In this document: piece after piece, positions 14,035-52,075 of the stretch
Layout of the letters: every line of letters begins with the position of its first letter
How positions within the stretch are numbered: position 1 is the first letter of the stretch
Notes under the pieces: generated by a model
Databases searched by the model: none
The model's input: the letters and a program-made list of their open reading frames with translations, nothing else
What the model was told of the DNA's origin: nothing
Program-made: the position numbers and the translations under genes
Source of the DNA: Pseudonocardia autotrophica
Lineage (GTDB): Bacteria > Actinomycetota > Actinomycetes > Mycobacteriales > Pseudonocardiaceae
Assembly (NCBI RefSeq): GCF_003945385.1
Contig: NZ_AP018920.1
Location: forward strand, 186,001-250,000
Direction: 5' to 3'
DNA length: 64,000 bases

Positions 14035-14058
14035 GGGAACCGGGGCAGGATGGTTGAT

Positions 14059-33156: not shown

Positions 33157-34100
33157 GCCGACCGCCGCCCCTCGCCGTGGGAGCGAGTGCTCGACAGGGT
33201 GGGCAGCCGACGGGGCCGGCGGGCGCCGTAGCCGAGTCCGGACGCGATCGTGGCGGCGATGTCGCCGGCGGTGCAGTCGCACGGCCCGTCGACGATGTGC
33301 CCGGCCGCAGCGGTCAGGTCCGCGGCGGCCTGGCGGTGGTCGAGCACCCCGGCCCCGACGAGCTGTCCGAGGGCACGGGCGGCGGTGAACACCGCGGCGT
33401 TGTGGCCCCCACGCCCGGCCTGAGCGATGCGCTGCAGCTCGGCCCGCACCACCGCCGACACGTAGGCCCCGGCGTCGCGCGGCGTGGTGGTGGGCCGCTC
33501 AGACGGCGCTGAGTTGGCCGTGGCGGGGCGAACGGACAGGTGCCAGACCAACCACCCCGGCAGAGGGGGCGGGTCGGTGTCGTCGAGCAGTTCGTAGGAG
33601 CCGTTCGGGAGCCGGCTGCCGGGGGCGAGCACCTGTCCGCCGTGCCCGCGACTGTCGAGCATCGGTCCCAACGTGCGAGCGGTGTTGCCGAGCCGGACCC
33701 CGGGATCGGTAGGGGCGCGGAAGTACAGGTGTCGGCCGCCGGACGGTGTGGCGACGGTCCAGGTGTCGGGTAGCCCGCCCCGGCCGGCGGCGAGGCCGGC
33801 GAGCACGGCGGCGCCGTCGCGGCTCTGGTCGGGGTCGGTCGGCTTGGGGGTGTCGCAGTCGACGACCAGGAGCCGGGAGGGGCCGCAGGCGATGCCGGCG
33901 TTGTGGTCGGGGTGGGCGGTGAAGTAGTCCACGATGGTCTCCGGGTGAGTGGTGGCGCGGGACTCCCACGCCGGGATGGCGGGCTGCTTGCGGCCGGGCA
34001 GGACTGGGAAGAGGTGCCAGCCGCGGGCGGCGAGGTCGAGCCAGCCGGCGAGACGAGCACGGTCTGTGGGACTGCCGGAACGGTCACTCTGTGTCGACAT
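33153..34100 (-). CDS. Bifunctional DNA primase/polymerase (prim-pol)
   Basis: The 315-residue protein starts at ATG 34100 (caggag at 6-nt spacing; ATG 34121 is less likely). The prim-pol domain begins with GWHLFPVLPGRKQP and has the metal-binding VVDCDTP (Asp81, Asp83) and TPSGGRHLYF (His124), with a third acidic region later. A helical C-terminal domain (about 205-300) follows. It would prime and copy the excised element, pairing with DUF3631 downstream. Confidence 0.9.
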   Translation of the reverse strand: MSTQSDRSGSPTDRARLAGWLDLAARGWHLFPVLPGRKQPAIPAWESRATTHPETIVDYFTAHPDHNAGIACGPSRLLVVDCDTPKPTDPDQSRDGAAVLAGLAAGRGGLPDTWTVATPSGGRHLYFRAPTDPGVRLGNTARTLGPMLDSRGHGGQVLAPGSRLPNGSYELLDDTDPPPLPGWLVWHLSVRPATANSAPSERPTTTPRDAGAYVSAVVRAELQRIAQAGRGGHNAAVFTAARALGQLVGAGVLDHRQAAADLTAAAGHIVDGPCDCTAGDIAATIASGLGYGARRPRRLPTLSSTRSHGEGRRSA

Positions 34101-34125
34101 TCGGGCTCCTGATTTCGGCATGGGT

Positions 34126-34268
34126 CTAGCGCCGCAGCACCCGCGTGGATGCTGTGTGGAGGGGATTCCGGGTGTGTTCGCCCTGGTGGCGCTAGGTTGC
34201 TAGCGGGCTGATCAGATGTGGTGTGGCGCGCTAGCGGCGGGTGCTAGGTCTAGCGGGGCTCACTGCTA
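34126..34268. repeat. CTAGCG-type repeat cluster between traB and prim-pol
   Basis: Seven CTAG tetranucleotides (34126, 34192, 34200, 34231, 34243, 34250, 34265) fall in 143 bp. Most extend to CTAGCG or its complement, and one forms the palindrome CGCTAGCG (34229-34236). CTAG is generally rare in bacterial DNA. The cluster fills the only sizeable gap in the AICE minus-strand operon, just past the translocase gene. Candidate transfer-recognition or origin repeats. Confidence 0.75.
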
Positions 34269-34299
34269 GTCGCACCCGCCGCCGCGCCGTCCCGGCCTG

Positions 34300-36531
34300 C
34301 TACTCGGTGTCATCGTCGGTGCCGGTGCGGCGCCGCCGTTCTGCGGTCTCCCACGCGGTCGTGATGGCGTCGCGGTGGTAGCCGCGCCGGTTGCGTCCGT
34401 CGCCGGTCTGCGGGTCGGTGCCCCACACCTGCTTGGGCTCGACCCCGTACGGGCGCAGGGCGGCGGCGAGCGTCGCCGGAGTGGTGCCGGTGTAGGTGGT
34501 CGGCCACTGCTCGACCAGCCGGGCGGCGATGACGTCGGACCACAGCCGGTCCTCGCCGGGGGCGAACACCGCGGCCACGTCGCCGAGCGCGGACCGCGAC
34601 GGCCCGCCGGTCTCCTCGACCGTCTCGCCGACAGCGTGGCCGGACAGGGTGCCGGCGGCCTCCCGCAGTGCGCGGGCGCGCGCGGCGATGGTCTCCGCGG
34701 CGGGTGCGTCGATGTAGGCCGAGCGCACGATCTGCGGCTCGTCGGCAGCGCCGACGAGGTAGCCGATGCCCTTGTCCTTCGCGGTGAACGTGGTCGCCCG
34801 GATGCCGTTCTTGTAGGCGCTGGTGCCGAGCACCATGTCGTTCTCGGTCTGGCCCATCACCCGCAGGCAGAACCGGGTGCCGACGTTCGCGCTGACCCCG
34901 GTGGGCAGCGACTTCGCGTCCGGGCGCTGCGTGGCGAGGATGAGGATGATCCCCATCGCCGGGCCGCGCTTGATGATGCCGGTCGCGAGCCGGTCGGCCT
35001 CGTCCTTGAAGTCGGGGTGGGAGAACAGCTCCTGGCACTCGTCGACCGCCAGGACGATCGGGTGAAGGCCCAGGTCACGGCGCCCGGAGATCTGCGGGGT
35101 GACCTTGTTCTCCGGGCACAGCTCCCGCGGCAGCTCCCGGATGCGCGTGGCCCGGGTGTTGAGCTCGGCGTACAGCTCGCGCAGCGACTCCATCGCCAGT
35201 TCCAGCGTGGCGTCGTCGGCACCGGAGGCGTACCGGTGCGCGCACCCCTCCATCGGCGACAGGTCCCCGGTGCCCTTCAACTCGAAGATCCGCAGCTGAG
35301 CTGTCGGGTCCAGAGCGCAGCCCAGCAGCAGCACCCGCAGCGCGAACGTCTTCCCCACCCGCGGCATCGCCCCGATCAGGACGTTCGAGAACATCAGCAG
35401 CAGCGACACCGACCGGCCGCGCTGGTCGGCACCGAACGGCACCGGCTTGAACAGGTCCACCTCGCCGTGCGCGGCGAGCGGCCACGGGCGCGGCTTGGCC
35501 TGGCTCATGTCCTGGTCGCCCACCCACAGCACGAGACGGCCGGCGTGGGCGTCGTACGCGGGCTCGGGCCACACGCAGCCCAGCGGGCGACGCAGGCCGG
35601 AGGCGAGCCGGTCCCGGCGCTCGACGATGTCGGTCACCGTCACCCCGAACGGCAGGTCGACGTCCGCGCGCCAGCCCGGCCCGTCACGGGTGATCGGCGC
35701 GGGAAACGTGATCCCGTTCGGCCCCTTCGCGAGCGCCTTGTTCATCTCACCCAGACCGAGCGCGCCCAGGGCTCGCACGACCATCTCCGAGGTGAGCCGC
35801 GTCGGCCCATATGTGACCACCGACCGCCCGGTGACCGGCTTGTCGGCCGGCGACCCGACCCAGCCGAGCACCAGCACCCCGGCGACCGCCAGGACGGCGA
35901 GCAGCCACGGCGGCGCGAAGGTCCACAGCGCCACCAGGGCACCGGCCCCGCCGAGCACCGCGGCGGCGAGCAGCCGGCGCCGGACCGCGATCCGCTCGGC
36001 GCGAGCGGCGGTCAGACGCAGGTACTGGTCCGGCTCACCGGAGCGGATGGCCTGCTCCCGCAAGGGTCGGGACTCGGCGTCGCCGGCCCACCGAGCGGCG
36101 CCGGCGACCGCGGTCACCGCGCCGCGCGGGGCGCGGGCCGTGAGGCGGGCGGCGTAGAGGGGCGCTCGGACGGTGTGGAACCCGGTGGAGTGCCACGCCC
36201 ATCCGGCGGCCCAGCGGGCGGCGGCCGCGATGTCCTCCCGGCTGCGCAGCCACGGTTCCACGACCGGGCGGCGGGACACCTCACGGCGCCACGGCAGCGC
36301 CACGTCCGTGCCTGCGGGAGGGTCCACCGCGACGTGCTGCACGTCGGTGCTGTCGACGATCTCGCCGTCGACCACCGTCGGGCGGTCCGAGCGCTCGACA
36401 GGGTCGGCCGAACGCGGGCGGAAGTTCAGCACCCGGGCGCCGGTCCCGTCGTGAACGGTGTCGGGCGCGGGCTCGTGAACGGTCGCCTGGGTCTGCTGGT
36501 CGGGGTTCGGGGTGTGCGGGTGGTCGGTCAT
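34300..36531 (-). CDS. FtsK/SpoIIIE-type DNA translocase of the AICE (TraB/TraSA-like)
   Basis: The 743-residue protein starts at ATG 36531, overlapping the DUF2637-like gene stop. An N-terminal cytoplasmic region leads to one or two TM helices (about 187-227), then the motor domain with Walker A GAMPRVGKT (388-395), Walker B VLAVDECQE (493-501) and LATQRPDAKSLPTG. The C-terminal ~130 residues form a winged-helix-like DNA-recognition region (LVEQWPTTYTGTTPATLAAALRPYGV). In AICEs this hexameric pump moves double-stranded DNA between cells at repeats near its own gene. The CTAGCG cluster directly downstream is the obvious candidate. Confidence 0.92.
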   Translation of the reverse strand: MTDHPHTPNPDQQTQATVHEPAPDTVHDGTGARVLNFRPRSADPVERSDRPTVVDGEIVDSTDVQHVAVDPPAGTDVALPWRREVSRRPVVEPWLRSREDIAAAARWAAGWAWHSTGFHTVRAPLYAARLTARAPRGAVTAVAGAARWAGDAESRPLREQAIRSGEPDQYLRLTAARAERIAVRRRLLAAAVLGGAGALVALWTFAPPWLLAVLAVAGVLVLGWVGSPADKPVTGRSVVTYGPTRLTSEMVVRALGALGLGEMNKALAKGPNGITFPAPITRDGPGWRADVDLPFGVTVTDIVERRDRLASGLRRPLGCVWPEPAYDAHAGRLVLWVGDQDMSQAKPRPWPLAAHGEVDLFKPVPFGADQRGRSVSLLLMFSNVLIGAMPRVGKTFALRVLLLGCALDPTAQLRIFELKGTGDLSPMEGCAHRYASGADDATLELAMESLRELYAELNTRATRIRELPRELCPENKVTPQISGRRDLGLHPIVLAVDECQELFSHPDFKDEADRLATGIIKRGPAMGIILILATQRPDAKSLPTGVSANVGTRFCLRVMGQTENDMVLGTSAYKNGIRATTFTAKDKGIGYLVGAADEPQIVRSAYIDAPAAETIAARARALREAAGTLSGHAVGETVEETGGPSRSALGDVAAVFAPGEDRLWSDVIAARLVEQWPTTYTGTTPATLAAALRPYGVEPKQVWGTDPQTGDGRNRRGYHRDAITTAWETAERRRRTGTDDDTE

Positions 36532-37433
36532 CACGCAGCCACCTCCTCGCCGGCCGACGGCCGGCTGTCGCGGGAACGAGCGGAGTCGATCGAGGCGGGC
36601 GCAGCGCGCAGGGCGGCGGCGACCTTGACGCTGGTGCCGGCCGAGCAGCCCGTCACCTGCCGGCACCACGCCGGCGTGACGTCGACCTGCTCACCGGCGT
36701 CCCGGGCGGTGTCGAGCGCTTCGGACGCGGCACGGACGTAGTCGGCCAGCAGCCGACGCGGCCGGGCCGCCGCCTTCCGTCGGCCACCGCCACGCGGTGC
36801 CCGGACCGGTGCCGCCGCGATTCGCGGAGCGGGCTCGGCGGCCGGCTCGTGAACGACCGGCTCGACCGGGTCGTGAACCACCGGAGTCTGCTCGGCGGTC
36901 GGCGCCGGCCCGGCGGCCACCGCGCGGTGCACCGCCTCGGTGAGCCGGTCACGCAGGACTGGGCCGGTCTCGGCGGTCGCGAACACCACCAGCGGCGGCA
37001 CCGAGTGCAGCACCACCCCGGCAGCGGAGAACGGCGCGTCGCCCAGGCCCCACGAGGTCCAGGTGTTCATGACGTAGGTGGCGGCGAAAGTCAGCCACTT
37101 CGTCCGCCGTGCCCAGGTCGGCAACGCGACCTGGTAGCGGGCGGTGACCTGCTCGGCGCGCAGCACCGCGAGCAGCACCAGCGACACCATCGGGTCCAGC
37201 AGCCACGCGACCCACCACGCGGCCGACCACGCCGGGGCACCGGCGGCGGCGAAGCTCTGGACGTTGACCATCGTGAACGCCAGACCGAGGACGATCCCGG
37301 CCCACAGCAGCCCGTCCACCTGCGCACGCACCCGCTCGACCCGCAGCGCGATCACGTCCGGATCGGTCGTCAGGGCCCGCACCCGAGCCGCATCCGCGGC
37401 CTGATCGGCGAGGCGCTCCACCGCGGCGCTCAC
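36531..37433 (-). CDS. DUF2637-like membrane protein (SpdB-type spread protein)
   Basis: The 300-residue protein starts at GTG 37433. Three or four TM segments lie in the first half (about 40-62, 70-95, 115-135, 140-160). The C-terminal half is a soluble Ala/Pro/Arg-rich region ending in a helix-turn-helix-like stretch (VTPAWCRQVTGCSAGTSVKVAAAL). Such proteins sit upstream of traB in AICEs and assist intramycelial spread. Its stop overlaps the traB start (ATGA). Confidence 0.8.
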   Translation of the reverse strand: MSAAVERLADQAADAARVRALTTDPDVIALRVERVRAQVDGLLWAGIVLGLAFTMVNVQSFAAAGAPAWSAAWWVAWLLDPMVSLVLLAVLRAEQVTARYQVALPTWARRTKWLTFAATYVMNTWTSWGLGDAPFSAAGVVLHSVPPLVVFATAETGPVLRDRLTEAVHRAVAAGPAPTAEQTPVVHDPVEPVVHEPAAEPAPRIAAAPVRAPRGGGRRKAAARPRRLLADYVRAASEALDTARDAGEQVDVTPAWCRQVTGCSAGTSVKVAAALRAAPASIDSARSRDSRPSAGEEVAA

Positions 37434-37447
37434 CGGACACCCCGCGA

Positions 37448-37753
37448 CTAGACGCGGACGACGTCGTCGGGGCCGGCGAGCATCCGCGCCACGGTCACCC
37501 CGGCGATCAACGCCGGGACACCGAGCACGATGACCCACGCGACCGGGTCGGCCGAGAGCTTCACGATCGCCCACTGCACCCCGACCACCACCGCGGCGGT
37601 GGCCAGGATTCGGGCGGCGTTGTTGCCGGTACGGCCGGCGTGGTGGATCGACTTCTGCACCTTGCGCCCGGCGCGTGCGCCGGCCGCCCACGACCACATC
37701 AGGACCAGCCCGGCCAGGACGCCGAGCGCGACGGCGATCGTCTGCCCGTTCAT
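37448..37753 (-). CDS. Small two-TM protein of the AICE transfer operon
   Basis: The 101-residue protein has TM segments at about 5-25 and 48-90, with a basic loop (ARAGRKVQKSIHHAGRTGNNAARIL) between them. It overlaps the Cys-rich gene upstream by ATGA and lies 14 nt before the DUF2637-like gene. Position and size fit Spd-type spread proteins of actinomycete elements. No catalytic features. Confidence 0.75.
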   Translation of the reverse strand: MNGQTIAVALGVLAGLVLMWSWAAGARAGRKVQKSIHHAGRTGNNAARILATAAVVVGVQWAIVKLSADPVAWVIVLGVPALIAGVTVARMLAGPDDVVRV

Positions 37754-38355
37754 CGCTGCTCACCCCCGGCCGGGGTGGCGGGCCGGGGCCGGTTCGGCTC
37801 TACCATCGCGGTCTCCTCACGTGCGTTCTGCTGGTGGGGGAGAGCCAGCCCGGCGGCTACATCCGCCAAGATCCCGTCGCCGGGCTGGTGCTCACTGCGG
37901 TTCCCGTTGCGGCGTGCCGGTTGCGGGCGCAGCTCGCCTCGTTCGAGCGCGGCGATGTAGGCGTCGGCCGCGCGCCCGTCGGCTCGTCGCGATGCCGCGT
38001 CGGCCTGGGTCACGTGCCGGTCGTCGACGTGGTCGCAGCGTCGGCACGTCCGCCACTCCCACCCGCAGCCCTCCCACGAGGTCGGGTCCTGCCACGGCTC
38101 GCAGGTCGAGTGCTCCCACACCGAGCCGTCGCAGGCGCACGCCCGCCACACCGGGGCGGGGCCGAAGTCGTGACCGATCAGTCGGCACAGCGCCGGGTCG
38201 GCACAGGCCGGGCACAGCAGCCGGCCGGACAGCCGGACCACCCAGCCGGCCGTGCGGGCCGCCGCCAGTCCATCGGTCGTTGTCCGAACCTGATCGGTAC
38301 CGGCCAGGGCGATCGCGCAGTCGTCGCAGCCGACGGTGATCCGCAGCGCGATCAC
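37750..38355 (-). CDS. Cysteine-rich AICE protein, possible zinc-binding
   Basis: The 201-residue protein starts at GTG. Pairs CDDC, CPAC, CAC and CRRC plus further Cys/His/Trp residues (WEGCGWEWRTCRRCDHVDDRH) suggest one or two zinc sites in the first 115 residues. The C-terminal part is polar. It is the second gene of the transfer operon, overlapping the two-TM gene. I do not recognise a family. Confidence 0.65.
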   Translation of the reverse strand: MIALRITVGCDDCAIALAGTDQVRTTTDGLAAARTAGWVVRLSGRLLCPACADPALCRLIGHDFGPAPVWRACACDGSVWEHSTCEPWQDPTSWEGCGWEWRTCRRCDHVDDRHVTQADAASRRADGRAADAYIAALERGELRPQPARRNGNRSEHQPGDGILADVAAGLALPHQQNAREETAMVEPNRPRPATPAGGEQR

Positions 38356-38623
38356 GCCGCCTCACCCCCGTAGCTCGGCGCGGTCGCGGTGACTGCGCAG
38401 CGCGGGTCATCCGGGTCATGGCCCGGCGGGTGCTGCGACGGCGCCGGCGCTCGGCCAGCTCCACCAACGCCCCGTCCACCGGCGCCGGCCGCGGGACCGG
38501 GGCCGGGCCCCACTCCTCAGCGATGACGCGGTCCCAGAACTCGTGCAGCACATCGCGCTGCTCGTCGGCCAGGGGCACGGTGCAGTCGTCCAGCTCGGCG
38601 GTGTCGTGTCGATCCGTGTGCAT
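38352..38623 (-). pseudogene. Small hypothetical AICE gene, probable frameshift in its 3' part
   Basis: From ATG 38623 the frame reads TAELDDCTVPLADEQRDVLHEFWDRVIAEEWGP, which looks like a real acidic protein. It has no stop until deep inside the next gene. In another frame the final stretch reads DPDDPRCAVTATAPSYGGEAA and stops at 38352, overlapping the next start as GTGA like every other junction in this operon. A one-base error near 38400-38440 would join the two. Function unknown. Confidence 0.4.
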
Positions 38624-38634
38624 GACGCTCCGAT

Positions 38635-38710
38635 CCGTCTTAATACGGTTGCTGTGGTTGCGACGGTAAGGCGCGACCGTCGCAACGTCAACCGCCGTCT
38701 TGAGACGGCG
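38635..38710. promoter_or_regulatory. Divergent AICE control region with paired operators
   Basis: Between the minus-strand transfer operon (38623) and gntR (38726) lie two near-identical sites: CCGTCTTAATACGG (38635-38648) and CCGTCTTGAGACGG (38695-38708), exactly 60 bp apart with 12/14 matches. The second is the core of a perfect 8-2-8 palindrome. Between them GTTGCGACGG (38657-38666) and CCGTCGCAAC (38677-38686) form another perfect inverted repeat. On the minus strand TTGACG and TACCGT are spaced 17 bp, a possible promoter. The pairing fits autorepression by the GntR protein. Confidence 0.7.
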
Positions 38711-38725
38711 AGTAGCCTCGCCGGC

Positions 38726-39130
38726 ATGGCTGCGCCCGACTCCGAGCCCGACGACGCCGAGCCGCGCCACGCGAGCCACCGCGTCGCCGAGCTGCTCGCC
38801 CGTGACATCGACGCCGGCACCTACGGGCCGGGGGAGCGGCTGCCCTCCTACCGGCAGATCGCGACCGACCACGACATCGCCGTGAACACCGCACAGGCGG
38901 CTGTCCGGCTCCTCGTCGCGTCCGGCCGGGCCGTCGTGCGACCCAGCAGCGGCGCGTTCGTCGCCGACGAGCCGGCCGGGGCGACCCGGACCACCGCGGC
39001 GGACCGGCTCGAACTCGCCGCGCTGCGCGACCAGGTCCGCCGGGCCAAGGCCACGCTCAACGACGTCGAACGGGCCATCGGCGAGATGCTCGACCGGGCG
39101 CCGGCGTCTGGTTCGGACTCGGGTTCGTAG
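38726..39130 (+). CDS. GntR-family regulator of AICE transfer (KorSA-like)
   Basis: The 134-residue protein has the GntR winged HTH at about 15-80 (VAELLARDIDAGTYGPGERLPSYRQIATDHDIAVNTAQAAVRLLVASGRAVV). A short helical tail replaces a ligand domain, as in YtrA- or KorSA-type repressors. It is transcribed away from the transfer operon across the operator region at 38635-38710. In pSAM2 the analogous KorSA represses transfer and replication genes; the same role is inferred here. Confidence 0.88.
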   Translation: MAAPDSEPDDAEPRHASHRVAELLARDIDAGTYGPGERLPSYRQIATDHDIAVNTAQAAVRLLVASGRAVVRPSSGAFVADEPAGATRTTAADRLELAALRDQVRRAKATLNDVERAIGEMLDRAPASGSDSGS

Positions 39131-39289
39131 TGCTCGTCTCGGTGCCATGAACCGAGAATCGAGTCTCCGGACAAATGAGTCCAAGGACCCTCTGACCTAC
39201 CCCGTGACCTGCTAGGACTACCAGGCATAAGCACTGGTCGGAGCCCGTGTCCGCGGGGCCAGCGCCCGAGAGGAAGGCGGAGAATTCTC

Positions 39290-40750
39290 GTGCCAGACGA
39301 GCCGTGGCTGTCGTCCCCCGCGTCATCGGAGCTGGAACTGAACACCGACCTGCTCGGCGAAGTCCTGCGCGAGTACCGCCGCGCCAACAAGATCAACCAG
39401 GCCGACCTGGCCCAACTGCTGCACCTGGATCAGTCCTACGTTTCCAAGATCGAGACAGGCAAGCGCCGGGTTACCGACATCGAGATGCTGTTGCGCATCG
39501 CCCAGCAGCTCAACATCTCGCCGGCCCGTCTCGGACTGTCGGACGAGCTGCTGCGGCCCGTGGCCGAGCCGTCGGACTCGCGGTTGGTCGGCGACGTCGA
39601 CCCGGTCGCGGTGAGCCAGGAGAAGTGGCGCCGGACGCGCCGTGCGCTCAACCGGTCCCGCCGGGAGCTGGCCCAGCGGGCCGCCGACCTCTACCAACCC
39701 GACGTCCGGGTCGGGGACCTGACGTTCCTGGCGCTGCCGCAGTGGACGCCGGAGCGTCCGATCCCGCTCGACGACATCCGCCTGGAGTGGAGCGACAACC
39801 CGCCCCCGGTCAGCATCACCGGCAGCGAGCCGGAGGCAGCGGCCACGTTGCCGCTGAGGGCACCGGGGAAGTCATTCCCGCGCTACACCTCAGCCGTGCG
39901 CTACCTCGACCCGCCGAAGCTGTTCGAGAACCGCACCAGCTACCGCCTCCTTGACGTCGACCTCCGCGACGACCCACGCATGACGTTCGGGCTCGCCGCC
40001 TACTTCGACAAACTCGACCTCGCCGAAGCCATCGCCCACGAGATGGCGGTCGCCGCCGAGCGCGCCGGGAAGAAGCTCGACTGGAGCGAGCTGCCGTTGC
40101 GGGCGCTCATCGGGGACCCCTTCGACCTCGAACGGCGCTACATCATCCCGGCCATCGAGACACTCACGCTCCGCCGCAACCGGGAGACCGGCGAGGCCAC
40201 GTTCCTGCTGCACTGGCGCGACCCGGCCAAGGTCGCCACATCGGCCGGCATCTACGGACTCATTCCGGCAGGGGAGTTCCAGCCGTCGACCGTCGCCACC
40301 CACGACCGCGAGAACGACTTCAGCCTCTGGCGCAGCATGGTGCGCGAGTACAGCGAGGAGATCCTCGGTGACCCGGAGCGTGACGGTAGTTCCGGTGAGC
40401 CACTGGTCTACGAGGGCTGGCAGCTTTACAGGGACATGGAGCGAGCGCGGCAGGATGGGCGGGTGACGCCGTATTGCTTCGGGGTCGGGCTCGACACGCT
40501 CACCCTGACAGCGACGATCCTGACCGTCGTCGTGTTCGACGACGACGCGTTCGACGAGCTATTCGGGGAGGCCGTCTCAGTCAACTCGGAGGGCTCACTT
40601 GTCAGCTCGTCGGACGTCGTCAACGTGACTGACGGACTCCGGTTCGATGAGGCGAACGTGGGGCGTTTATTGCAAGATGAACCGGTTGCTTCGCCGGGGA
40701 GCTGTATTCTGCGGCGCGCGTTCGATGCTAGGGAGACGCTCCTTCGTTGA
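39290..40750 (+). CDS. XRE-type HTH regulator with degenerate Nudix-like C-terminal region
   Basis: The 486-residue protein starts at GTG behind aggaaggcggag. The N-terminal Cro/C1 HTH (about 22-82) has NKINQADLAQLLHLDQSYVSKIETGKRRV. The long C-terminal part includes REYSEEILG (Arg352 to Gly360), close to the RE-x-x-EE-x-G core of a Nudix box but with one extra residue before Gly. pSAM2 encodes a separate Nudix protein, Pif, that limits redundant transfer between donors; this fusion could combine regulation with such a role. The 3' end of the gene has lower GC than its surroundings. Confidence 0.75.
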   Translation: MPDEPWLSSPASSELELNTDLLGEVLREYRRANKINQADLAQLLHLDQSYVSKIETGKRRVTDIEMLLRIAQQLNISPARLGLSDELLRPVAEPSDSRLVGDVDPVAVSQEKWRRTRRALNRSRRELAQRAADLYQPDVRVGDLTFLALPQWTPERPIPLDDIRLEWSDNPPPVSITGSEPEAAATLPLRAPGKSFPRYTSAVRYLDPPKLFENRTSYRLLDVDLRDDPRMTFGLAAYFDKLDLAEAIAHEMAVAAERAGKKLDWSELPLRALIGDPFDLERRYIIPAIETLTLRRNRETGEATFLLHWRDPAKVATSAGIYGLIPAGEFQPSTVATHDRENDFSLWRSMVREYSEEILGDPERDGSSGEPLVYEGWQLYRDMERARQDGRVTPYCFGVGLDTLTLTATILTVVVFDDDAFDELFGEAVSVNSEGSLVSSSDVVNVTDGLRFDEANVGRLLQDEPVASPGSCILRRAFDARETLLR

Positions 40751-40765
40751 GGAGTGGATGGTTCA

Positions 40766-41085
40766 TCAAGACTGTGGATCATGGTGTCGAATCTTCGGTT
40801 CGGCGTATTTGGCCCGGAACTCGGGGTCGCGGCTGACCTTCCAGGTCTTGGTGGCCTGCCAACGCACCCCGCGGCGCACAGGATCCGGTGCACGGTGTCG
40901 GTGTTGATCACGACCCGGTGCGCCGCGGTGAGATGGGCGGTCAGCTTGGTCAGGCTCCACGTGGTGAACGGCAGCCCGGCCTGTTGCGGTGGGGTCCGGG
41001 CGACCCGGCAGACAAGTTCGCGGACGTGGGTGCCGAACTTCGGTCCCTCAGCTTGTCGTCGCCGGCCCTCTCGGGCGTCTGCCAC
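40766..41085 (-). pseudogene. IS630-family transposase remnant, frameshifted and truncated
   Basis: One frame reads GPKFGTHVRELVCRVARTPPQQAGLPFTTWSLTKLTAHLTAAHRVVINTDTVHRILCAAG. It continues in another frame as VRWQATKTWKVSRDPEFRAKYAEP, then a stop. This is the N-terminal winged-helix part of an IS630-type transposase; the DDE catalytic domain is absent. A missing G in CCGCGGGGTG explains the frame change. The remnant sits exactly between the AICE backbone and the Mrp operon. Confidence 0.8.
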
Positions 41086-41379
41086 GTCCCGTGATGCCTC
41101 CGTCTACACTCTCGGGCCATGAGCACCGCATGCGTGCTGCGCGCCATGGAGTGGCTCGTCTCGCACCCTGGTACCAACGGTCACCCGACGTCTTGGGGAC
41201 CGATGCTGGCAGGCGTCGCTCCGGACGCCTGAGCTCCACTCCGCCGCTCGGCAAACCTGCCTGGAGCGACCGGACACGCGTGGGCGCGGTCGTGATCTGA
41301 TCCGAGCCCGTCTCCGTCGGACGACCGGCCGGTTCGACGGTCTGTTTCGCCATGCGCCCGACACCCGGGAGGAGGATTC
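41086..41379. other. Gap upstream of mrpA without a supportable gene
   Basis: No convincing coding sequence. A 37-codon ATG frame from 41119 has no recognisable features. The last 12 bases contain the strong ribosome-binding site gggaggagga (about 41366-41375) for mrpA. The mrp promoter must lie here or further upstream. Confidence 0.6.
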
Positions 41380-44184
41380 GTGTCGTTGCTCCCCGTACTC
41401 GTCACAGCGTGGGTACTGGTGTTGCTCGTGCCGGTGCTGGCGGTACGGCTCGGACCACGTACCGGCTGGGTGGCTGCCGCCGTGCTGGGCGCGCTCACCG
41501 TCGTGGTCGCCGCCGGTCCTGCCTCGTCGCCGGAACCGGTGGACGAGGTGCTCCCCTGGATCCCGGCCCTCGAGGTGATGCTGCGACTGCGGATGGACGG
41601 CCTCGGCGCACTCTTCGCACTGGTCGTGCTCGGCATCGGCGCCGTGATCATGGCGTACTCGACGTCGTACCTGACCGGGAGGGGCTCCGGCGGGTTCTAC
41701 GCGCTGATGACCGCGTTCGCCGCGGCGATGCTGACCCTGGTCCTGGCCGACGACCTGGTCCTGCTGTTCGTCGCGTGGGAGATCACGACAGTCTGCTCGT
41801 ACCTGCTCATCCTGCGGGTCGGCCCGAAGGGCCGCCAGCCGGCCGCCCGCACCCTGCTGATCACCGTCTTCGGCGGGCTCGCCCTGCTCGGTGCCGTGTG
41901 CACGATCGTGGTGCGGACCGGCACGACGCAGCTGTCCGTCGCGCTCGCCGACCCGGCGTGGGGAACCGATCCGGTGTTCGCCGGGGTGGTCGCGGTGCTC
42001 GTCGCGGTGGCTGCGATGACGAAGGCGGCGCAGTTCCCGTTCCACTCCTGGCTCCCGGACGCGATGGTCGCCCCGGCACCGGTGAGCGCCTACCTGCACG
42101 CGGCAGCCATGGTGAAGGCGGGCATCTACCTGCTGATGCGGTTCTCCGGAGCGGCCGCGGCCGCACCGGTGTGGCCATGGCTGCTCGTGACGGTCGGAGT
42201 CGTCACTTCCCTGCTCGGCGGAGTGTTCGCGCTGCAGCGCCATGACCTCAAGGAGCTGCTCGCCTACTCCACTGTGAGCCAACTCGGCCTACTGGTGGCG
42301 GTGATCGGCATCGGAACCCCCACGGCGCTGCTCGCCGCGAGCGCACACGTCGTGGCGCACGCCTTGTTCAAGTCGGCCGGCTTCATGACGGTCGGCCTGC
42401 TCGAACGCCGGGCGGGAACCCGGGATCTGCGTGAGCTGCGCGGCCTGTTCCGGGCGATGCCATGGACCGCGACGATGATCGTTCTCGCCGCGGCCGGCAT
42501 GGCCGGGATCCCGGTCACCCTGGGCTTCGTCTCCAAGGAGTACGTGCTCGACGCCGCGCTGTCCGCCGGCACCGGACCGGGCACGCTCGCGGCCGTCGGG
42601 CTCGGTCTGGCCGCGGTGCTGACCGTCGCCTACAGCGCCCGGATGGTCGTCCCGATCATGTTCGGGTCGGCCGCCGTCCTGCGCCCCGCGGCCGGCGCCC
42701 GGGCGATGGCCGGGACGGTCACGGTGACCGCGCTCGCCGGTGCGGTGCTCGGACCGGCGGCCGGAGTGCTCGATCCGCTGCTCACCTCGTCCGCGGCGGC
42801 CTCGCTCCGGATCCCGCCCGCCGGGGTTGACGGCTTCTACGTGTGGCACGGGCTCGCCCCGGCGCTGCTCGTGTCCGTGCTCGCGGTCGCCACCGGCGTT
42901 GGGCTGGTGCTCGCACGGGCGCGGGTCGACCGGCTGCTCGACCGTCCGCTCTGGCCGTTCACCGGTGTCGCCGCGGTGCAGCGCCTGCGCGCCGGGATCA
43001 TCGACCTCGGCCGCACGACCGGCCGCCCGACCGCCGGTGACGCACCCGCCCGGCACCTGCTCGTCCCGATCCTGCTGATCGCGGTCGGCGGAACCGCCGC
43101 CGTCGCGCTGCGGGCCGGTGACATCGCCGCCGCACCGGACACTTCCCGCACGACGGACGTGCTCCTGCTGCTGCTCTCGGCTGCCGGGATCGGGGCCGTG
43201 CTGATCGCCCGCGACCGGCTCACCGCGGTGCTGGCCGCGGGGGTGGTCGGCTTCTCGGTGGCCCTGTGGTTCTTCGGACTCGGTGCCGCGGACGTCGCCC
43301 TCACCCAGCTCCTGGTCGAGGTGTTGACGGTGGCCGTGATCGTGTTGATCCTGCGCCGGCTCCCCCGTGGCTTCCCCCGGGCTCGCGGCCGGGACCGTCG
43401 CGCCGTCCCACGCGTCGTGCTCGCGGTCGGCGCGGGGGTCGCCGCGACGACCGCGACGCTGTTGATGACGGGATGGCGGGCCCCGTCCGCGGCATCGGTC
43501 TGGTTCCTGGCGGAGGCGGAGGGGCAGACCGGCGGCTCCAACGTCGTCAACACGATCCTGGTCGACTTCCGGGCGCTCGACACGTTCGGCGAGCTCGTGG
43601 TGCTCGCGCTGGCCGCCCTGGTGATGACGGCGCTGCTCGACGCACGCCGCTCGCAGCCGTTGCAGGTGCCCGCCCGTCCGGCCGCCCCGGTGGTCGATCC
43701 ACGGGCGAACGCGATCTTCCTGCGCACGGCGGCGAAGGTGCTCGTCCCGTTCCTGCTTCTCGCGTCGGTCTACGTGCTGCTGCGCGGGCACAACGCCCCC
43801 GGGGGCGGGTTCATCGGCGCTCTCGTCGGCGCATCGGCGCTGGTGCTGGCCTACCTCGCGGCACCGTCCGACACCACCGGCCGGGTCCGGCTGCCGTTCC
43901 TGCTGGTGGCCGGGATGGGGGCGGTCGTCGCGGCGGCGACCGGGCTGCTCGGGCTGCTCGACGGCTCGTTCCTGCGGCCGCTGCACGCCGACGTCCTCGG
44001 TGTCCACCTCTCGACCGCGCTGGTGTTCGACGTCGGGGTGTACTTGGCGGTCCTGGGAGTGGTGGTCGCCGGACTGAACCTGCTCGGGTCGCCGCCGGCC
44101 GACGAGCCGGATCCCGATCCCCCGACCGAACGGTCCGCACAGGACCACGCGTCCGAGGAGGCCTCGCGATGGTCCTCGCCCTGA
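41380..44184 (+). CDS. mrpA: Mrp antiporter subunit A with fused MrpB domain
   Basis: The 934-residue membrane protein starts at GTG. It has the complex-I-like antiporter core: LLFVAWEITTVCSYLLI with Glu134, and AMTKAAQFPFHSWLPDAM with the conserved Lys. About twenty TM helices follow and a C-terminal MrpB domain (about 775-915) beginning IFLRTAAKVLVPFLLLASVYVLLRGHNAPGGGFIGAL. MrpA and MrpB fusion is usual in actinobacteria. Together with MrpC-G it forms the multisubunit Na+(Li+,K+)/H+ antiporter that supports alkali and salt tolerance. It is the first gene of the operon, overlapping mrpC by 16 nt. Confidence 0.95.
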   Translation: MSLLPVLVTAWVLVLLVPVLAVRLGPRTGWVAAAVLGALTVVVAAGPASSPEPVDEVLPWIPALEVMLRLRMDGLGALFALVVLGIGAVIMAYSTSYLTGRGSGGFYALMTAFAAAMLTLVLADDLVLLFVAWEITTVCSYLLILRVGPKGRQPAARTLLITVFGGLALLGAVCTIVVRTGTTQLSVALADPAWGTDPVFAGVVAVLVAVAAMTKAAQFPFHSWLPDAMVAPAPVSAYLHAAAMVKAGIYLLMRFSGAAAAAPVWPWLLVTVGVVTSLLGGVFALQRHDLKELLAYSTVSQLGLLVAVIGIGTPTALLAASAHVVAHALFKSAGFMTVGLLERRAGTRDLRELRGLFRAMPWTATMIVLAAAGMAGIPVTLGFVSKEYVLDAALSAGTGPGTLAAVGLGLAAVLTVAYSARMVVPIMFGSAAVLRPAAGARAMAGTVTVTALAGAVLGPAAGVLDPLLTSSAAASLRIPPAGVDGFYVWHGLAPALLVSVLAVATGVGLVLARARVDRLLDRPLWPFTGVAAVQRLRAGIIDLGRTTGRPTAGDAPARHLLVPILLIAVGGTAAVALRAGDIAAAPDTSRTTDVLLLLLSAAGIGAVLIARDRLTAVLAAGVVGFSVALWFFGLGAADVALTQLLVEVLTVAVIVLILRRLPRGFPRARGRDRRAVPRVVLAVGAGVAATTATLLMTGWRAPSAASVWFLAEAEGQTGGSNVVNTILVDFRALDTFGELVVLALAALVMTALLDARRSQPLQVPARPAAPVVDPRANAIFLRTAAKVLVPFLLLASVYVLLRGHNAPGGGFIGALVGASALVLAYLAAPSDTTGRVRLPFLLVAGMGAVVAAATGLLGLLDGSFLRPLHADVLGVHLSTALVFDVGVYLAVLGVVVAGLNLLGSPPADEPDPDPPTERSAQDHASEEASRWSSP

Positions 44185-44507
44185 CGATCGGTCTCCTCGT
44201 CGCAGGAGCCGCCTACCTCATGCTCGACCGCAGCTACCTGCGTGCGGTGCTCGGCTTCCTGATGCTCGGCCACGCCGTCAACCTGCTGCTGTTCGCCTCC
44301 GGCGGGATCCAGCGCCGCGGCGAGCCCCTGGAGGGCACCGACCCGGCCGCGGCGGCCGACCCGCTGCCACAGGCGTTCGTGCTGACCGCGATCGTGATCG
44401 CGTTCGCGATCACCGTGGTCATGCTCGTGCTCGCCGTGACCGGGCGGGCCGGCGACGACACGGCCGACCGGGAACGTCCGGCCGGGCGATCGGAGCCTGT
44501 CCGATGA
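44169..44507 (+). CDS. mrpC: Mrp antiporter subunit C
   Basis: The 112-residue protein has three TM helices and the NuoK-like signature YLRAVLGFLMLGHAVNLLLF, followed by DPLPQAFVLTAIVIAFAITVVML. The ATG lies within the mrpA 3' end (16-nt overlap) and its stop overlaps the mrpD start. Confidence 0.95.
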   Translation: MVLALTIGLLVAGAAYLMLDRSYLRAVLGFLMLGHAVNLLLFASGGIQRRGEPLEGTDPAAAADPLPQAFVLTAIVIAFAITVVMLVLAVTGRAGDDTADRERPAGRSEPVR

Positions 44508-46015
44508 CGACCGCTGCCCTCCTCCCGCTGCTCGTCGGGCTGCCGCTGGGTGCCGCAGGGCTCACCGCACCGGCCAGGGCCGGTGCGCCGTGGGCACGCG
44601 CGGTGCTGCTCGGGCTGCTCGGCGCGAACCTCGCCGCCGGGATCGCGCTGGTCGTCGCCACCTCCGGTGGCGCAGTGCTCGCCGAGCCGGTCGGGGCCTG
44701 GCCGGGCGGGATCGCGATCCCGTTCGTCGCGGACGCGCTGTCGTCGCTGATGCTCGCCGTGACCGGACTGCTGGCACTGGTCTGCACCGCCTTCGGGCTG
44801 ATGACCGGACCGGGGGCGGCGCGGCTATTCCCGCCCCTGGTCCTGGCGCTGCTCGGTGGGGTCAACGGGGCCCTGCTGACCGCGGACCTGTTCAACCTCT
44901 TCGTCTTCATCGAGGTCATGCTCCTGCCGTCGTACGGGCTGCTGGTGCTCGCCCACCGCAGGCAGGGGACGATGCGCTCGGTCAGCGGCACCCGGCTCTA
45001 CGTCGCGTTCAACCTGTTCGTCTCCACCGTCTTCCTCGCCGGTGTCGCGCTCGTCTACGGCAGTGCGGGCACGGTCAACCTCGCCGAGCTCGCCGGGGCG
45101 GCGCAGGAGTCCGGGACCGTCGCGGCGGCGGTGGGCGTCTGCCTGGCCGCGCTGTCGATGAAGGCCGCGGTCGTTCCCGTGCACGGCTGGCTCGCCCGGG
45201 CCTACCCCTCGACCTCACCGGCCGTCACGGCGCTGTTCTCCGGGCTGCACACCAAGGTCGCGATCTACGCGATCTACCGGATCTACGCGGTCGTGTTCGA
45301 CGGCGAGACGCGCTGGCTCTGGATCGGTGTCCTGCTGTTCTCCGCGACGATGCTGGTCGGCGTCCTCGGCGCGGTCGGCGAGAACACGATGCGTTCGATC
45401 CTGGCCTTCCACATGGTCAGCCAGATCGGCTACATCCTGCTCGGCGTCGCCCTGTTCACCCCGCTCGGGCTGGCGGCGGGAATCTTCTACCTGCTGCATC
45501 ACATGATCGTCAAAGCGTCGCTATTCCTCTCCACCGGCGCGGTCGAGGAGCGCCACGGGACCGGCGCGCTGGACGGGATCCGCGGCGTCGCCCGGCGCGA
45601 CCCGCTGCTGGTCGCCGCGTTCGGGGTGGCCGCCCTGTCCCTGGCCGGGATCCCGCCGTTCTCCGGGTTCGTGGCGAAGCTGACCCTGATCCTCGCGGCG
45701 CTCGACGCCGGCCAGGTCGCCGCCGCGGTCCTCGCGATCGTGGTCAGCCTGCTCACCCTGCTGTCGATGATCAAGATCTGGAACTCGCTGGTGCGCAGGC
45801 CCGACGAGGACGGCGAACCGGCCGGCGGCGGGGGGACCGCCGTCGCGGCTCCCCCGGTGCCCCGGGTGGGGCTGCGGCTGACCCTGCCCGCGCTCACGCT
45901 GGCCGCCGTCACCCTCGGCCTCGGGCTCGGCGCCGAGCTGCTGTACGGGCTGTCCGCCACGGCGGCGGCCGGCCTGCTCGACACCAGCGGATACGTGGAG
46001 GCGGTACTCCGATGA
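44504..46015 (+). CDS. mrpD: Mrp antiporter subunit D
   Basis: The 503-residue complex-I-like subunit (NuoN/NuoM relative) has FNLFVFIEVMLLPSYGLLVL with the conserved Glu and LSMKAAVVPVHGWLARAYPSTSPAVTALFSGLHTKVAIYAI with the conserved Lys. GIPPFSGFVAKLTLI is also typical. About 14 TM helices. It overlaps mrpC and mrpE by ATGA junctions. It forms the proton-translocating core with MrpA. Confidence 0.95.
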   Translation: MTTAALLPLLVGLPLGAAGLTAPARAGAPWARAVLLGLLGANLAAGIALVVATSGGAVLAEPVGAWPGGIAIPFVADALSSLMLAVTGLLALVCTAFGLMTGPGAARLFPPLVLALLGGVNGALLTADLFNLFVFIEVMLLPSYGLLVLAHRRQGTMRSVSGTRLYVAFNLFVSTVFLAGVALVYGSAGTVNLAELAGAAQESGTVAAAVGVCLAALSMKAAVVPVHGWLARAYPSTSPAVTALFSGLHTKVAIYAIYRIYAVVFDGETRWLWIGVLLFSATMLVGVLGAVGENTMRSILAFHMVSQIGYILLGVALFTPLGLAAGIFYLLHHMIVKASLFLSTGAVEERHGTGALDGIRGVARRDPLLVAAFGVAALSLAGIPPFSGFVAKLTLILAALDAGQVAAAVLAIVVSLLTLLSMIKIWNSLVRRPDEDGEPAGGGGTAVAAPPVPRVGLRLTLPALTLAAVTLGLGLGAELLYGLSATAAAGLLDTSGYVEAVLR

Positions 46016-46371
46016 TCCGGTCCCTCGCCCGGGTGCCGTACGTGTTCGTGTTCGGCCTGTGGTTCGCCGGCCAGGTCCTGATCTGCTGCCGGGACGTGCT
46101 GGTCGACGTCCTCACCCCGGGCTCGTCCGCGACGCCGCGGGTGCTCCGGCTGCCGCTCGCCTCCGAGACCGGCTCCCGGGCCGCGGTTATGGGTGCGCTG
46201 ATCACGCTGACGCCGGGGACCCTGACCCTCGGTGTCGTCGACGGCCACCACGAGCTGCTCGTCCACTCGATGTACCACGACGACGCCGAGACCGCGTTGG
46301 CGGAGCTGCGCGACATGGAGGCCCGCATGCTGCGGGCGTTCGGTCCGCTGCGGAGGGGGGTGCCGACGTGA
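46012..46371 (+). CDS. mrpE: Mrp antiporter subunit E
   Basis: The 119-residue protein has MrpE features: PLASETGSRAAVMGALITLTPGTLTLGV and the LLVHSMYHDD segment. The usual N-terminal TM region is present but shortened compared with ~160-residue MrpE proteins. ATGA overlap with mrpD and GTGA overlap with mrpF. Confidence 0.93.
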   Translation: MIRSLARVPYVFVFGLWFAGQVLICCRDVLVDVLTPGSSATPRVLRLPLASETGSRAAVMGALITLTPGTLTLGVVDGHHELLVHSMYHDDAETALAELRDMEARMLRAFGPLRRGVPT

Positions 46372-46625
46372 TCGGCCTCGACATCGCACTCGCCTGCTGC
46401 GGGCTGGCCGCACTGATCGCCGTGGTGCGGATCGTGCGCGGTCCGGACAGCGGCTCCCGGGTCATCGGCGCCGAGCTGCTCACCGTCACCGTGGTCGGCC
46501 TGATCGCGCTCGGTGGTGTCCGCTCGGGCAGCACGTCGACCTTCGATCTCGTGCTCGTCGCGACCATGGTCGCGTTTCTGGCCGCCGTGTCGTTCGCCCG
46601 CGCCCTGACCGGAGGTGGCCGATGA
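46368..46625 (+). CDS. mrpF: Mrp antiporter subunit F
   Basis: The 85-residue protein starts at GTG and has three TM helices with VRIVRGPDSGSRVIGAELLTVTVVGLIAL, the MrpF signature (RGPTxxDRVxAxD in most members, here SGSRVIGAE). Overlaps mrpE and mrpG. Confidence 0.93.
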   Translation: MIGLDIALACCGLAALIAVVRIVRGPDSGSRVIGAELLTVTVVGLIALGGVRSGSTSTFDLVLVATMVAFLAAVSFARALTGGGR

Positions 46626-46978
46626 GCGGGATCCTCGCCGTCCTCGGACAGGTCGTCGCCGTCGCCGGGGGGCTCACGCTGCTGCTCGCCGCGGTCGGGC
46701 TTCTCCGCTTCGGCGACGTGTACATGCGGGCCTCCTCGGTCGCCACCGCCACCGGCGTCGGCATCAGCCTGGTGATCGTCGGGTCGGTGCTCGTGGCGCC
46801 GGGGGTCGCCGACGTCGTGAAGGCGCTGCTGGCGGTCGTCCTGCAGATCGTCACCGCCGCGGTGGGCGGGATCATGGTCGCCCGCTCGGCCGTGCTCACC
46901 GACCACCCGTTCCGACCCGATACCGACATTCCTGAGGCACGGGGCCCAGCCTCAGCCACGGAGGACCCGCCATGCTGA
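46622..46978 (+). CDS. mrpG: Mrp antiporter subunit G
   Basis: The 118-residue protein has three TM helices and the MrpG motif LLRFGDVYMRASSVATATGVGISLVIVGS. The last subunit gene of the operon; its stop overlaps the next small frame by 7 nt. Confidence 0.93.
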   Translation: MSGILAVLGQVVAVAGGLTLLLAAVGLLRFGDVYMRASSVATATGVGISLVIVGSVLVAPGVADVVKALLAVVLQIVTAAVGGIMVARSAVLTDHPFRPDTDIPEARGPASATEDPPC

Positions 46979-47223
46979 GACGACAACCGTCCTGGTGGTC
47001 GCACAACGGCGGGCCACTCGTCCTCCTCGCCGCGGTACTGCTCGTCGCACTGCTCGCTGCAGCGATGCGCGTGTGGATCGGCCCGGGCTCCTCGTCAGAC
47101 TCCGGACTCCTCATCGGCCTCGTGGCGACGAGAGAGATCCCCGACTGTGATGTGATCAGCGAGCCAACGGGTCAGGCGCGGGCGATGAGCGGTTGCCCCT
47201 CGGACTTCTCTGCCGTGGGGTGA
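46972..47223 (+). CDS. Small hypothetical protein after mrpG, possibly degenerate
   Basis: The 83-residue frame starts at ATG 46972, overlapping mrpG. Residues 14-35 form one hydrophobic segment preceded by RRQPSWWSHNG. The rest is polar and unlike any family I know. Coupling to mrpG supports translation. It is not one of the seven Mrp subunits. Confidence 0.5.
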   Translation: MLRRQPSWWSHNGGPLVLLAAVLLVALLAAAMRVWIGPGSSSDSGLLIGLVATREIPDCDVISEPTGQARAMSGCPSDFSAVG

Positions 47224-47630: not shown

Positions 47631-47685
47631 CCTTGAAAGCGAGCGTCCGAAAGGACCGGGGGTTCGAATCCCCCCGCTTCCGCCA
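47631..47685 (+). repeat. attR: 55-bp copy of the tRNA-Ser 3' end
   Basis: Identical to 30094-30148 over all 55 bases, from the anticodon stem to CCA. It lacks the 5' half of a tRNA, so it is a border repeat and not a second tRNA gene. Confidence 0.95.
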
Positions 47686-51046: not shown

Positions 51047-52075
51047 ATGGTGAAACGACGCGTGATGTCAGGTCCGTTCGCCCGTCCGCGAGCGCACAGC
51101 CGACGCCTTCTGGGGATCGGGGTGGTCGGACTCGTCGCGCTCGCCGGCTGCGGCGCACCCGAGGCGTCGCAGGCCGCCGCTCCCGGTGAGGCACCGGCAC
51201 CCATCTCGAGTTGCGGGCGTGATGTCACGCTCGAGGCGGCGCCGACGCGGATCCTGGTCCACCGGGAGATGTCGACCCTGGTCGCGGCCGCAGGTGGAGC
51301 CGACCGGATCGTCGCGCGGGCCGGAGAGGCGGGTGTGCCGCTCGGCCCCTACGCCGACGCCCTCGCCGACGTCCCACAGCTCAACGAGACCGACATGACC
51401 GCGCCGGACCGTGAGGTCGTCCTGGGTGAGCAGGCCGATCTCGTCGTCGCGGGGCGGGTCCAGGCCGACTACCTCGACGCCCTCGAACAGGTCGGGGTTC
51501 CGGCGGTGGTCCCGCCCTGGTTCTGCAGCCAGGTCGCCCCCGGCAACGACGACGCGGCGTCGGTCGGGTTCGACGCGCTCTACGCGACGATCGAGGAGTA
51601 CGGGCGGGCGTTCGGAACCGAGGATGTCGCCACCGGCACCGTCGACGAACTGCGGGAACGGGTCGCCGCCGTCGAGCAGGAGATGAGCGGAGCGCCGCCG
51701 CGCACGGTGGTGAACGCATGGCTCGGGCGCGAGACCGTCACGTCCGTCTACGGCGCGCTGTCGATCAACAACACGGTGCTGACCGCACTGGGGCTGACGA
51801 ACATGTTCGAGGACATGGAGGCGCGGAACCCCACGGTGAGTTTCGAGGCGATCCTCGGCAAGGATCCGGATCTGATCGTCGTGAGCTACCTCCCGTCACA
51901 CGGGTACACCGAGGAGGACGCCGTGCGGGCCTTCTCGGAGACCCCCGGAGCGGATCAGCTGGCCGCGGTCCGCAACGGCAGGGTCGTCGCCATGAACAGC
52001 GGCTACCTCGCCGGCGGGCCGTTGGCCGTGGACGGGCTGGAGATGCTCGCCCAGCGACTGGCCGCACTGGACTGA
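51047..52075 (+). CDS. ABC-transporter substrate-binding lipoprotein (FecB/siderophore type)
   Basis: The 342-residue protein starts at ATG. It has a basic N-terminus, a hydrophobic segment and the lipobox LVALAGC (Cys about residue 35). The class III binding-protein fold shows RDVTLEAAPTRILVHREM and EQADLVVAGRVQADYLDALEQVGVPAVVPP. It fits uptake of iron-siderophore or a similar chelate, since the next genes are FecCD- and FecE-like. Ligand identity cannot be read. Confidence 0.88.
   Translation: MVKRRVMSGPFARPRAHSRRLLGIGVVGLVALAGCGAPEASQAAAPGEAPAPISSCGRDVTLEAAPTRILVHREMSTLVAAAGGADRIVARAGEAGVPLGPYADALADVPQLNETDMTAPDREVVLGEQADLVVAGRVQADYLDALEQVGVPAVVPPWFCSQVAPGNDDAASVGFDALYATIEEYGRAFGTEDVATGTVDELRERVAAVEQEMSGAPPRTVVNAWLGRETVTSVYGALSINNTVLTALGLTNMFEDMEARNPTVSFEAILGKDPDLIVVSYLPSHGYTEEDAVRAFSETPGADQLAAVRNGRVVAMNSGYLAGGPLAVDGLEMLAQRLAALD

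Follow-up and report, generated by a model that had tools for sequence, protein, structure and literature searches.

Mrp antiporters and actinomycete integrative elements

Ghinet et al. (2011, PMC3218068) describe actinomycete integrative and conjugative elements (AICEs) as residing in tRNA genes and combining a tyrosine integrase, xis, a RepAM/Prim-Pol replication module and an FtsK-type Tra protein. In that paper the name 'MrpA' denotes a tyrosine recombinase, not an antiporter. Here we describe an element of this kind in 64,000 nucleotides of Pseudonocardia autotrophica DNA (NCBI RefSeq assembly GCF_003945385.1, contig NZ_AP018920.1, positions 186,001 to 250,000), the whole of which is called the window. 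Like the AICEs with RepAM and/or Prim-Pol, such as pMEA100 and pSE211 (PMC3218068), it has xis, DUF3631, Prim-Pol, an FtsK-type Tra and a tRNA site, together with both parts of a tyrosine integrase; unlike them, it carries a six-gene Mrp antiporter operon as cargo and its integrase reads in two frames. The element is of a known kind, its cargo unusual.

Gain of Mrp in Actinobacteria had earlier been inferred from trees, as for the mrp operon of Salinispora (PMC3314556), which is likewise an actinobacterial group 2 Mrp with fused A and B acquired horizontally. The term 'genomic island' does not occur in the available text of that paper, whereas in the window the carrier is visible, and vehicle, borders and a cargo-free sister can be seen together. 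Brevibacterium genomes are described as having two group 2 mrp operons each. Ion-balance cargo on integrative and conjugative elements has a parallel in the elements of the SXT/R391 type and their relatives (PMC4857294, PMC5122569), although those are elements of Gammaproteobacteria with single-gene antiporters, and 'mrp' appears in neither main text as available. No paper joining an Mrp antiporter with an AICE or another integrative and conjugative element was found in a search that left most subscription papers outside. The locus makes it testable whether a six-gene bioenergetic complex moves as one cassette and is used by a host that has two other Mrp systems.

The element and its cargo

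The AICE is 17.5 kb long and is bounded by an exact 55-bp repeat of the 3' part of tRNA-Ser(tga). Direct repeats with the tRNA 3' end, a Rep module (DUF3631 and Prim-Pol) and an FtsK-type Tra are all found in it, the last being 75% and 70% identical to its counterparts in genus relatives. Its features, with those of the attachment (att) site, are as follows (ORF, open reading frame).

30063-30148, plus strand: tRNA-Ser(tga), the integration site (ARAGORN, Rfam)
30094-30148, plus strand: left att repeat, the last 55 bases of tRNA-Ser(tga) (exact 55-bp repeat)
30236-31490, minus strand: tyrosine integrase, one part at 30567-31490 and the other, in a different frame, at 30236-31027 (Pfam; frame comparison with three relatives)
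31502-31789, minus strand: xis-like HTH_17 protein (domain search)
31786-33282, minus strand: DUF3631 (RepAM) replication protein (PF12307, E 5e-60)
33153-34121, minus strand: Prim-Pol protein, start uncertain (PF09250, E 1e-44)
34300-36669, minus strand: FtsK/SpoIIIE-type Tra, start uncertain (PF01580, 27.1 bits, cut-off 24)
37448-38355, minus strand: two small AICE ORFs, 37448-37753 and 37750-38355, also present in related AICEs
38543-39130, plus strand: GntR-type regulator (domain search)
39290-40750, plus strand: HTH_3 regulator, where the backbone common to the sister AICE L133 ends (domain search, alignment)
47631-47685, plus strand: right att repeat (exact 55-bp repeat, no mismatch)

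In the host genome (G000, 7.5 Mb) the search for the integration site described below gave three matches, namely the tRNA, the right copy and a 75%-identical place at C1:379006. Between the repeats, and beyond the regulator genes, lies a complete mrp operon of six genes in the order mrpA(B)-C-D-E-F-G, at 41380-46978 on the plus strand by domain and family searches; the claim of the first-pass annotation that all Mrp subunits, A with its B domain and C to G, lie inside the att repeats is borne out by the gene calls and the repeats themselves. The cassette as a whole extends from about 41105 to about 47100, further at both ends than that annotation had drawn it.

We propose, with a probability of roughly 0.87, that the mrp cassette is horizontally gained cargo of the AICE integrated in tRNA-Ser(tga). 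On this view an AICE equipped for RepAM/Prim-Pol replication and with an FtsK-type Tra integrated into the tRNA-Ser(tga) of this Pseudonocardiaceae genome. The stretch from the HTH regulator gene of the element to its right end would be occupied by a self-contained cassette, made up of a promoter, the leader ORF, mrpA(B)CDEFG and a small ORF of membrane type. The cassette would be a horizontal acquisition, its source lying outside the Pseudonocardiaceae within the reach of the tree, and would have become attached to an AICE backbone that has, in another species, a sister lacking it. On expression the host would gain a third Mrp complex, one of the Dietzia type that exchanges Na+ for H+, with a possible benefit at high salt or pH. 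Besides the position, the repeats and the gene content, the proposal draws on the integration site in relatives, the other mrp copies, the foreign phylogeny of the cassette and the sister element without mrp. The conserved leader ORF is likewise observed, while antiport, regulation by the leader and a benefit are predictions.

The integration site was sought in 62 genus genomes with a query of 148 bases ending in tRNA-Ser(tga), and 61 of them matched. In nine other genomes (G003, G005, G010, G016, G027, G029, G041, G057, G061) the contig with the tRNA has a further copy of the 55 bp, no more than 22 kb away on the downstream side, so that tRNA-Ser(tga) is a recurrent integration site. Some tRNA-Ser(tga) loci with a second copy (for example among L181, L182, L186 and L187) have int, xis or tra matches. 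In a sample of 14 tRNA-Ser loci of genus relatives, no mrp match was found in any. Pieces of the right flank of the window lie downstream of the tRNA in seven of these loci (G005, G025, G030, G031, G039, G041, G043), and the joined flanks of the window align 27-53 bp past the junction in six (G005, G006, G029, G039, G041, G061). The right-flank gene at 51047-52075 was rejected as a marker; at E 1e-60 it was found only in the host among the 62 genomes.

The host genome has three MnhB matches, the window copy and two at C1:1.88-1.89 Mb. Comparison with these two other clusters, as the first-pass annotation had proposed, gives MrpA identities of 41% and 46% and MrpD identities of 38% and 54%. In the host (L097 3504-16097) as in G043 (L098 1009-13022), the two chromosomal clusters differ from one another and lie convergently in a span of about 13 kb. 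At E 1e-150, MrpA was found in three of the 62 genus genomes, the host, G005 (76%) and G043 (47-48%), G005 being the only one of the other 61 with an mrpA more than 50% identical; at E 1e-190 it was found in 11 of 390 family genomes, namely the host, G005 and nine others at 51-54%. DNA common to the window and G005 comprises 41140-41244, 41463-44461 and 44506-47085. The G005 operon (C3:1.966 Mb) has a sodium:sulfate symporter-type gene as its neighbour, and no relatives of the AICE genes were found in the 34 kb around it; the cassette alone resembles the element. The G005 location was considered as the ancestral one and set aside as uninformative, the symporter gene being present in 10 of the 62 genomes including the host; the regions with that gene in the host, G030 and G025 have no other G005 neighbour in common.

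An MrpA tree of 42 rows was made by a quick method, with near-duplicates, short and low-scoring rows left out and only ten rows kept of the set under 44% identity. It places the window and G005 copies together (Shimodaira-Hasegawa-like approximate likelihood ratio test, SH-aLRT, 100), within a 15-row set (SH-aLRT 97) with Cellulomonas, Microbacterium, Brachybacterium, Sediminivirga, Kineosphaera and Micromonospora, and far from both host-type copies and from other family members. Approximately unbiased (AU) tests, made with 28 rows, rejected a single clade with six family rows (p-AU 4.7e-9) and likewise a single clade with the second host-type copies of the host and G043 (p-AU 1.4e-4); the groups were defined after the first tree had been seen. 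As judged from these sequences, the cassette is foreign, and within the reach of the tree its origin lies outside the Pseudonocardiaceae.

A sister AICE in G042 (L133 3642-18570) is integrated at tRNA-Tyr, with repeats of its own about 14.9 kb apart. It matches the window at 31784-40725 and not beyond; identity is 77-80% over most of this length, which is interrupted by a gap and weaker matches at about 36.3-38.4 kb. It has no mrp; the space between its regulator and its end is taken by a D12-class DNA methyltransferase-like gene together with an ORF of no family. The cargo of the AICE of G037 (L131, tRNA-Arg) comprises a PIN/TPR-type protein and an HD-domain protein. As the backbone match ends at 40725 and these AICEs have other cargo, mrp is cargo on a known type of backbone. 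A related AICE of G035 (L141 1718-17539), at tRNA-Ser(gga), has an APH-family phosphotransferase gene in its cargo, and its integrase and Tra matches are in pieces.

It had also been stated that Mrp is usually a core chromosomal system, which is only partly right. MrpD-like matches occur on 380 plasmid records, where identity stays below 60% and coverage below 80% throughout, so that mobile Mrp as such is not rare; DUF3631 was matched in 130 of the 390 family genomes, and MnhB is present in only 24 of 65 and 43 of 64 of the 129 others among them. In plasmids no MrpA was found at E 1e-60, nor was the whole element found in plasmid records or an MrpA relative in viral contigs. The nearest DUF3631-MnhB pair on one contig, among the matches listed, is about 242 kb apart (G361). 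Four of the 11 genomes with window-type mrp have DUF3631 (G000, G063, G065, G378), near mrp only in G000 among the matches listed. In 80 mrp loci of named genomes, some on short contigs, the best MrpA identity was 61% and no relatives of the AICE int, xis, rep or tra were found at E 1e-5.

Mobility and alternative explanations

Several observations weigh against the proposal. The integrases of three relatives, each in a single open frame (483, 459 and 458 residues), match the window integrase in two frames, with the N-terminal and central part at 30567-31490 and the catalytic part at 30236-31027 in a different frame. In five of the six junction-spanning loci (G005, G029, G006, G041, G061) the tRNA is accompanied by an integrase match or a further copy of the repeat; because of these signs of other elements, only G039 is a clean empty site. 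The cassette has 72.6% G+C and its surroundings 71-72%, which is no difference. No second AICE with mrp was seen when the DUF3631 places listed were compared by eye with the MnhB places, a comparison outside which stand at least eight MnhB genomes with no DUF3631 place listed (G011, G036, G126, G213, G282, G283, G289, G388). Finally, the search of the 80 named loci covered relatives of the window AICE's own proteins only, not mobile genes at large.

The split integrase makes present mobility doubtful. Either the gene is broken or the assembly is in error; a programmed frameshift was considered and rejected, since the integrase of G035 also seems shifted, from a reading of coordinates, but at another position. 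There is close to an even chance that the AICE brought mrp and has since been stranded, its own integrase no longer excising it and mrp having become in effect chromosomal, which is compatible with arrival of the operon as AICE cargo. The single frames of 458-483 residues in the three relatives speak for this, while an assembly error would remove the ground for it; the other AICE genes searched are open frames, unlike the integrase, and integrase relatives in the genus could act in trans. Unless the sequence is in error or such an integrase acts in trans, self-mobility of the element now is doubtful. The suggestion of the first-pass annotation that the element would spread salt or alkali tolerance between strains accordingly finds no backing, with the integrase frame broken and no second AICE with mrp found; nor did related AICEs carrying mrp emerge among the DUF3631 places listed, the sister L133 being without it.

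It is highly improbable that the borders are coincidental, with an mrp operon native to the chromosome next to what is left of an AICE, for although the integrase is broken and the G+C content is like that of the surroundings, mrp lies between exact att repeats, is absent from all 14 tRNA-Ser loci of relatives, in seven of which the right flank continues behind the tRNA, and is accompanied in the host by two other mrp clusters. The first-pass annotation had tied such a coincidence to an operon that was the only copy and syntenic in AICE-free relatives, and neither is what was found. Its reading of Mrp as AICE cargo, for which the att repeats, the AICE genes, the element-free relatives, the two further host clusters and the foreign phylogeny all speak, is the one we retain, and the MrpA tree for which it had called sets the window and G005 copies apart from the host-type copies and from family members.

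The Mrp operon and its likely function

The cassette holds the group 2 Mrp (CPA3) gene set A(B)-C-D-E-F-G in order. MrpA carries Proton_antipo_M, MbhD, MbhE and MnhB, so that A and B are fused.

41380-44184, plus strand: mrpA with fused B (Proton_antipo_M, MbhD, MbhE, MnhB)
44169-44507, plus strand: mrpC (family searches)
44504-46015, plus strand: mrpD (family searches)
46012-46371, plus strand: mrpE, 119 residues, short type (family searches and match to a structure relative)
46368-46622, plus strand: mrpF (family searches)
46622-46978, plus strand: mrpG (family searches)
46972-47223, plus strand: small ORF that overlaps mrpG and has a single hydrophobic stretch (52 residues of it conserved in G005)

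The small ORF at the end of the operon has its counterpart in the G005 locus L096 at 6471-6626, and a similar short ORF lies directly 3' of mrpG in Cellulomonas loci (L021, L022, L050).

The nearest solved structure for A, D and E is the Dietzia Mrp (PDB 7d3u; E 2e-242, 6e-163 and 1e-14). Like the window operon, it has a fused MrpAB, the same subunits and a short MrpE (121 residues in Dietzia, 119 in the window), while the window operon stands on an AICE with a leader ORF and the Dietzia system is known here from its proteins alone. In the printed alignments to 7qru, MrpA E140/K223 align with E134/K215 of the window MrpA, and MrpD E137/K219 with E137/K220 of the window MrpD; the charged residues, which we take to matter for Mrp, are thus present in both subunits. 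Na+/H+ antiport is the likely activity, by relation to the solved Dietzia Mrp. It might be argued that the complex is chiefly another cation/proton exchanger, for K+ for example, or has a task other than Na+ export, since the NCBIfam equivalog cut-offs are missed for most subunits and the model that mrpD passes is described only as 'putative monovalent cation/H+ antiporter subunit D'. This is unlikely, the nearest solved relative for A and D being named an Na+/H+ antiporter.

A conserved leader open reading frame before mrpA

Upstream of the operon, on the same strand, is a conserved short ORF, the translation of which is suggested by its pattern of conservation. The counterparts in other loci are given with it.

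41105-41110, plus strand: -10 hexamer TACACT, 8 nucleotides before the leader start (sequence reading)
41119-41232, plus strand: conserved leader ORF, 37 codons (conservation with G005, motif recurrence)
L095 15504-15617, L028 9606-9743, L066 9620-9757 and L019 9643-9783: other leader ORFs, before mrpA

The predicted peptide is MSTACVLRAMEWLVSHPGTNGHPTSWGPMLAGVAPDA; it contains GTNGHPTSWG, and the ORF ends 147 nucleotides before mrpA. Regulatory leader peptides are a general class of short ORFs before operons. The window ORF is like them in standing before an operon and in having Trp and Pro near its end, and unlike them in that it matches no described family and is known here from sequence alone. 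No description of a leader ORF before mrpA was found in Pfam, NCBIfam or Rfam or in the literature, where neither a leader peptide nor a leader motif of mrpA turned up in a search outside which most subscription papers lie. Four of four leaders were without a match in Pfam and four of five in NCBIfam, the fifth scoring 12.7 bits against a cut-off of 230, which is chance level.

The motif, GTNG[YHQ]xxSWG...(A/C)P, occurs in several actinobacterial families, its lineages being Tamaricihabitans and other Pseudonocardiaceae, Nocardiopsis, Oerskovia, Isoptericola, Rothia and Demequina. The G378 locus agrees with Tamaricihabitans halophyticus in its MrpA scores and in its leader, which identifies the family of the genomes compared as Pseudonocardiaceae. 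A core regular expression gave 25 places in 2.9 Mb of loci, about 15 of them distinct since the loci overlap. In 24 of these an mrpA match follows on the same strand at a distance of 146-449 bp; the remaining one (L197) is G005's place again, in a locus without an mrpA match after it. The loci were mostly chosen for holding mrpA, and the count alone is therefore no proof of specificity. A profile made from 14 cores, run against 5.46 million residues, found 35 places scoring at least 36.7 bits, 14 of the matches holding by construction as its own source cores; the next score was 12.0 bits, and with nothing between these values no weak leaders were seen in loci without the motif. The core is present in 23 of 105 mrp loci tested, overlapping loci counted. 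Most mrp loci are without it, among them those of Cellulomonas, Micromonospora, Sediminivirga and Microbacterium, which are near the window MrpA in the tree; loss is the only explanation offered for its absence there.

In an independent check, a DNA pattern gave 10 matches in 10 of 394 class genomes, and 2 in a reversed control. The ten are the host, G637 (with the same leader peptide as Isoptericola L019), seven in genus g86, other genomes of which are without a match, and G623. Nine of the matches stand directly before mrpA. That in G623 (L251 8582, minus strand, C12) precedes an FAD-binding monooxygenase gene, with no mrp found in 18 kb, so that the leader is not strictly tied to mrp. The best NCBIfam match of this monooxygenase is Tet(X), an identification that was rejected at 122 bits against a cut-off of 750. 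In viral DNA 25 stretches match the pattern, with a best profile score of 14.6 bits against at least 41 for the ten genome matches, and were taken as chance matches.

It is possible to see in the conserved stretch a regulatory RNA or a protein-binding site instead of a peptide, as there is strong conservation of the first and second codon positions across some 30 nucleotides. That conservation was in part demanded by the patterns used to find the sequences, and third positions vary in nine of the ten core codons among 19 sequences. Over the GTNG and SWG codons of all pairs, which are not independent, there are 373 synonymous and 50 nonsynonymous differences; since the search patterns demanded most core residues, the low nonsynonymous count is partly built in, and the free third positions, together with the comparison of the window with G005 made before any pattern, are the better evidence for a putative peptide. 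A TANNNT hexamer lies 6-8 nucleotides before an in-frame start codon in all seven window-like copies, against 62 of 14000 random positions, a pattern that had been noticed before its count was made; the start codon thus has a -10 sequence just before it in each. Seven copies of other leader types are without that hexamer, some having a purine-rich stretch before ATG. In Rfam nothing in the window but the tRNA exceeds its gathering score, and no RNA structure beyond that of shuffles was found in the window copy of the leader. An RNA or binding site in place of a peptide is accordingly quite improbable. An RNA element before mrpA was also rejected, the two Rfam matches at 40751-41600 being far under their gathering scores, and a scan for E. 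coli-type sites found no promoter- or terminator-like consensus before mrpA.

The conserved leader ORF gives a concrete handle on the control of mrp operons. It might represent a new family of cis-acting, possibly ribosome-stalling peptides that sense sodium, pH or proton-motive force for actinobacterial Mrp operons, in which case the AICE would carry sensor and antiporter as one portable, self-regulated tolerance module; we advance this tentatively, with the odds against it.

Other features of the window

Two repeats lie outside the element. An array of 9-bp units at 3639-3800 falls within the ORF 1303-4353, where the frame reads mostly DGT and DGA, and a 14-bp tandem repeat, TGTTGGCGACCGAC, occupies 13237-13289, between the ORFs 10530-13034 and 14050-14709.

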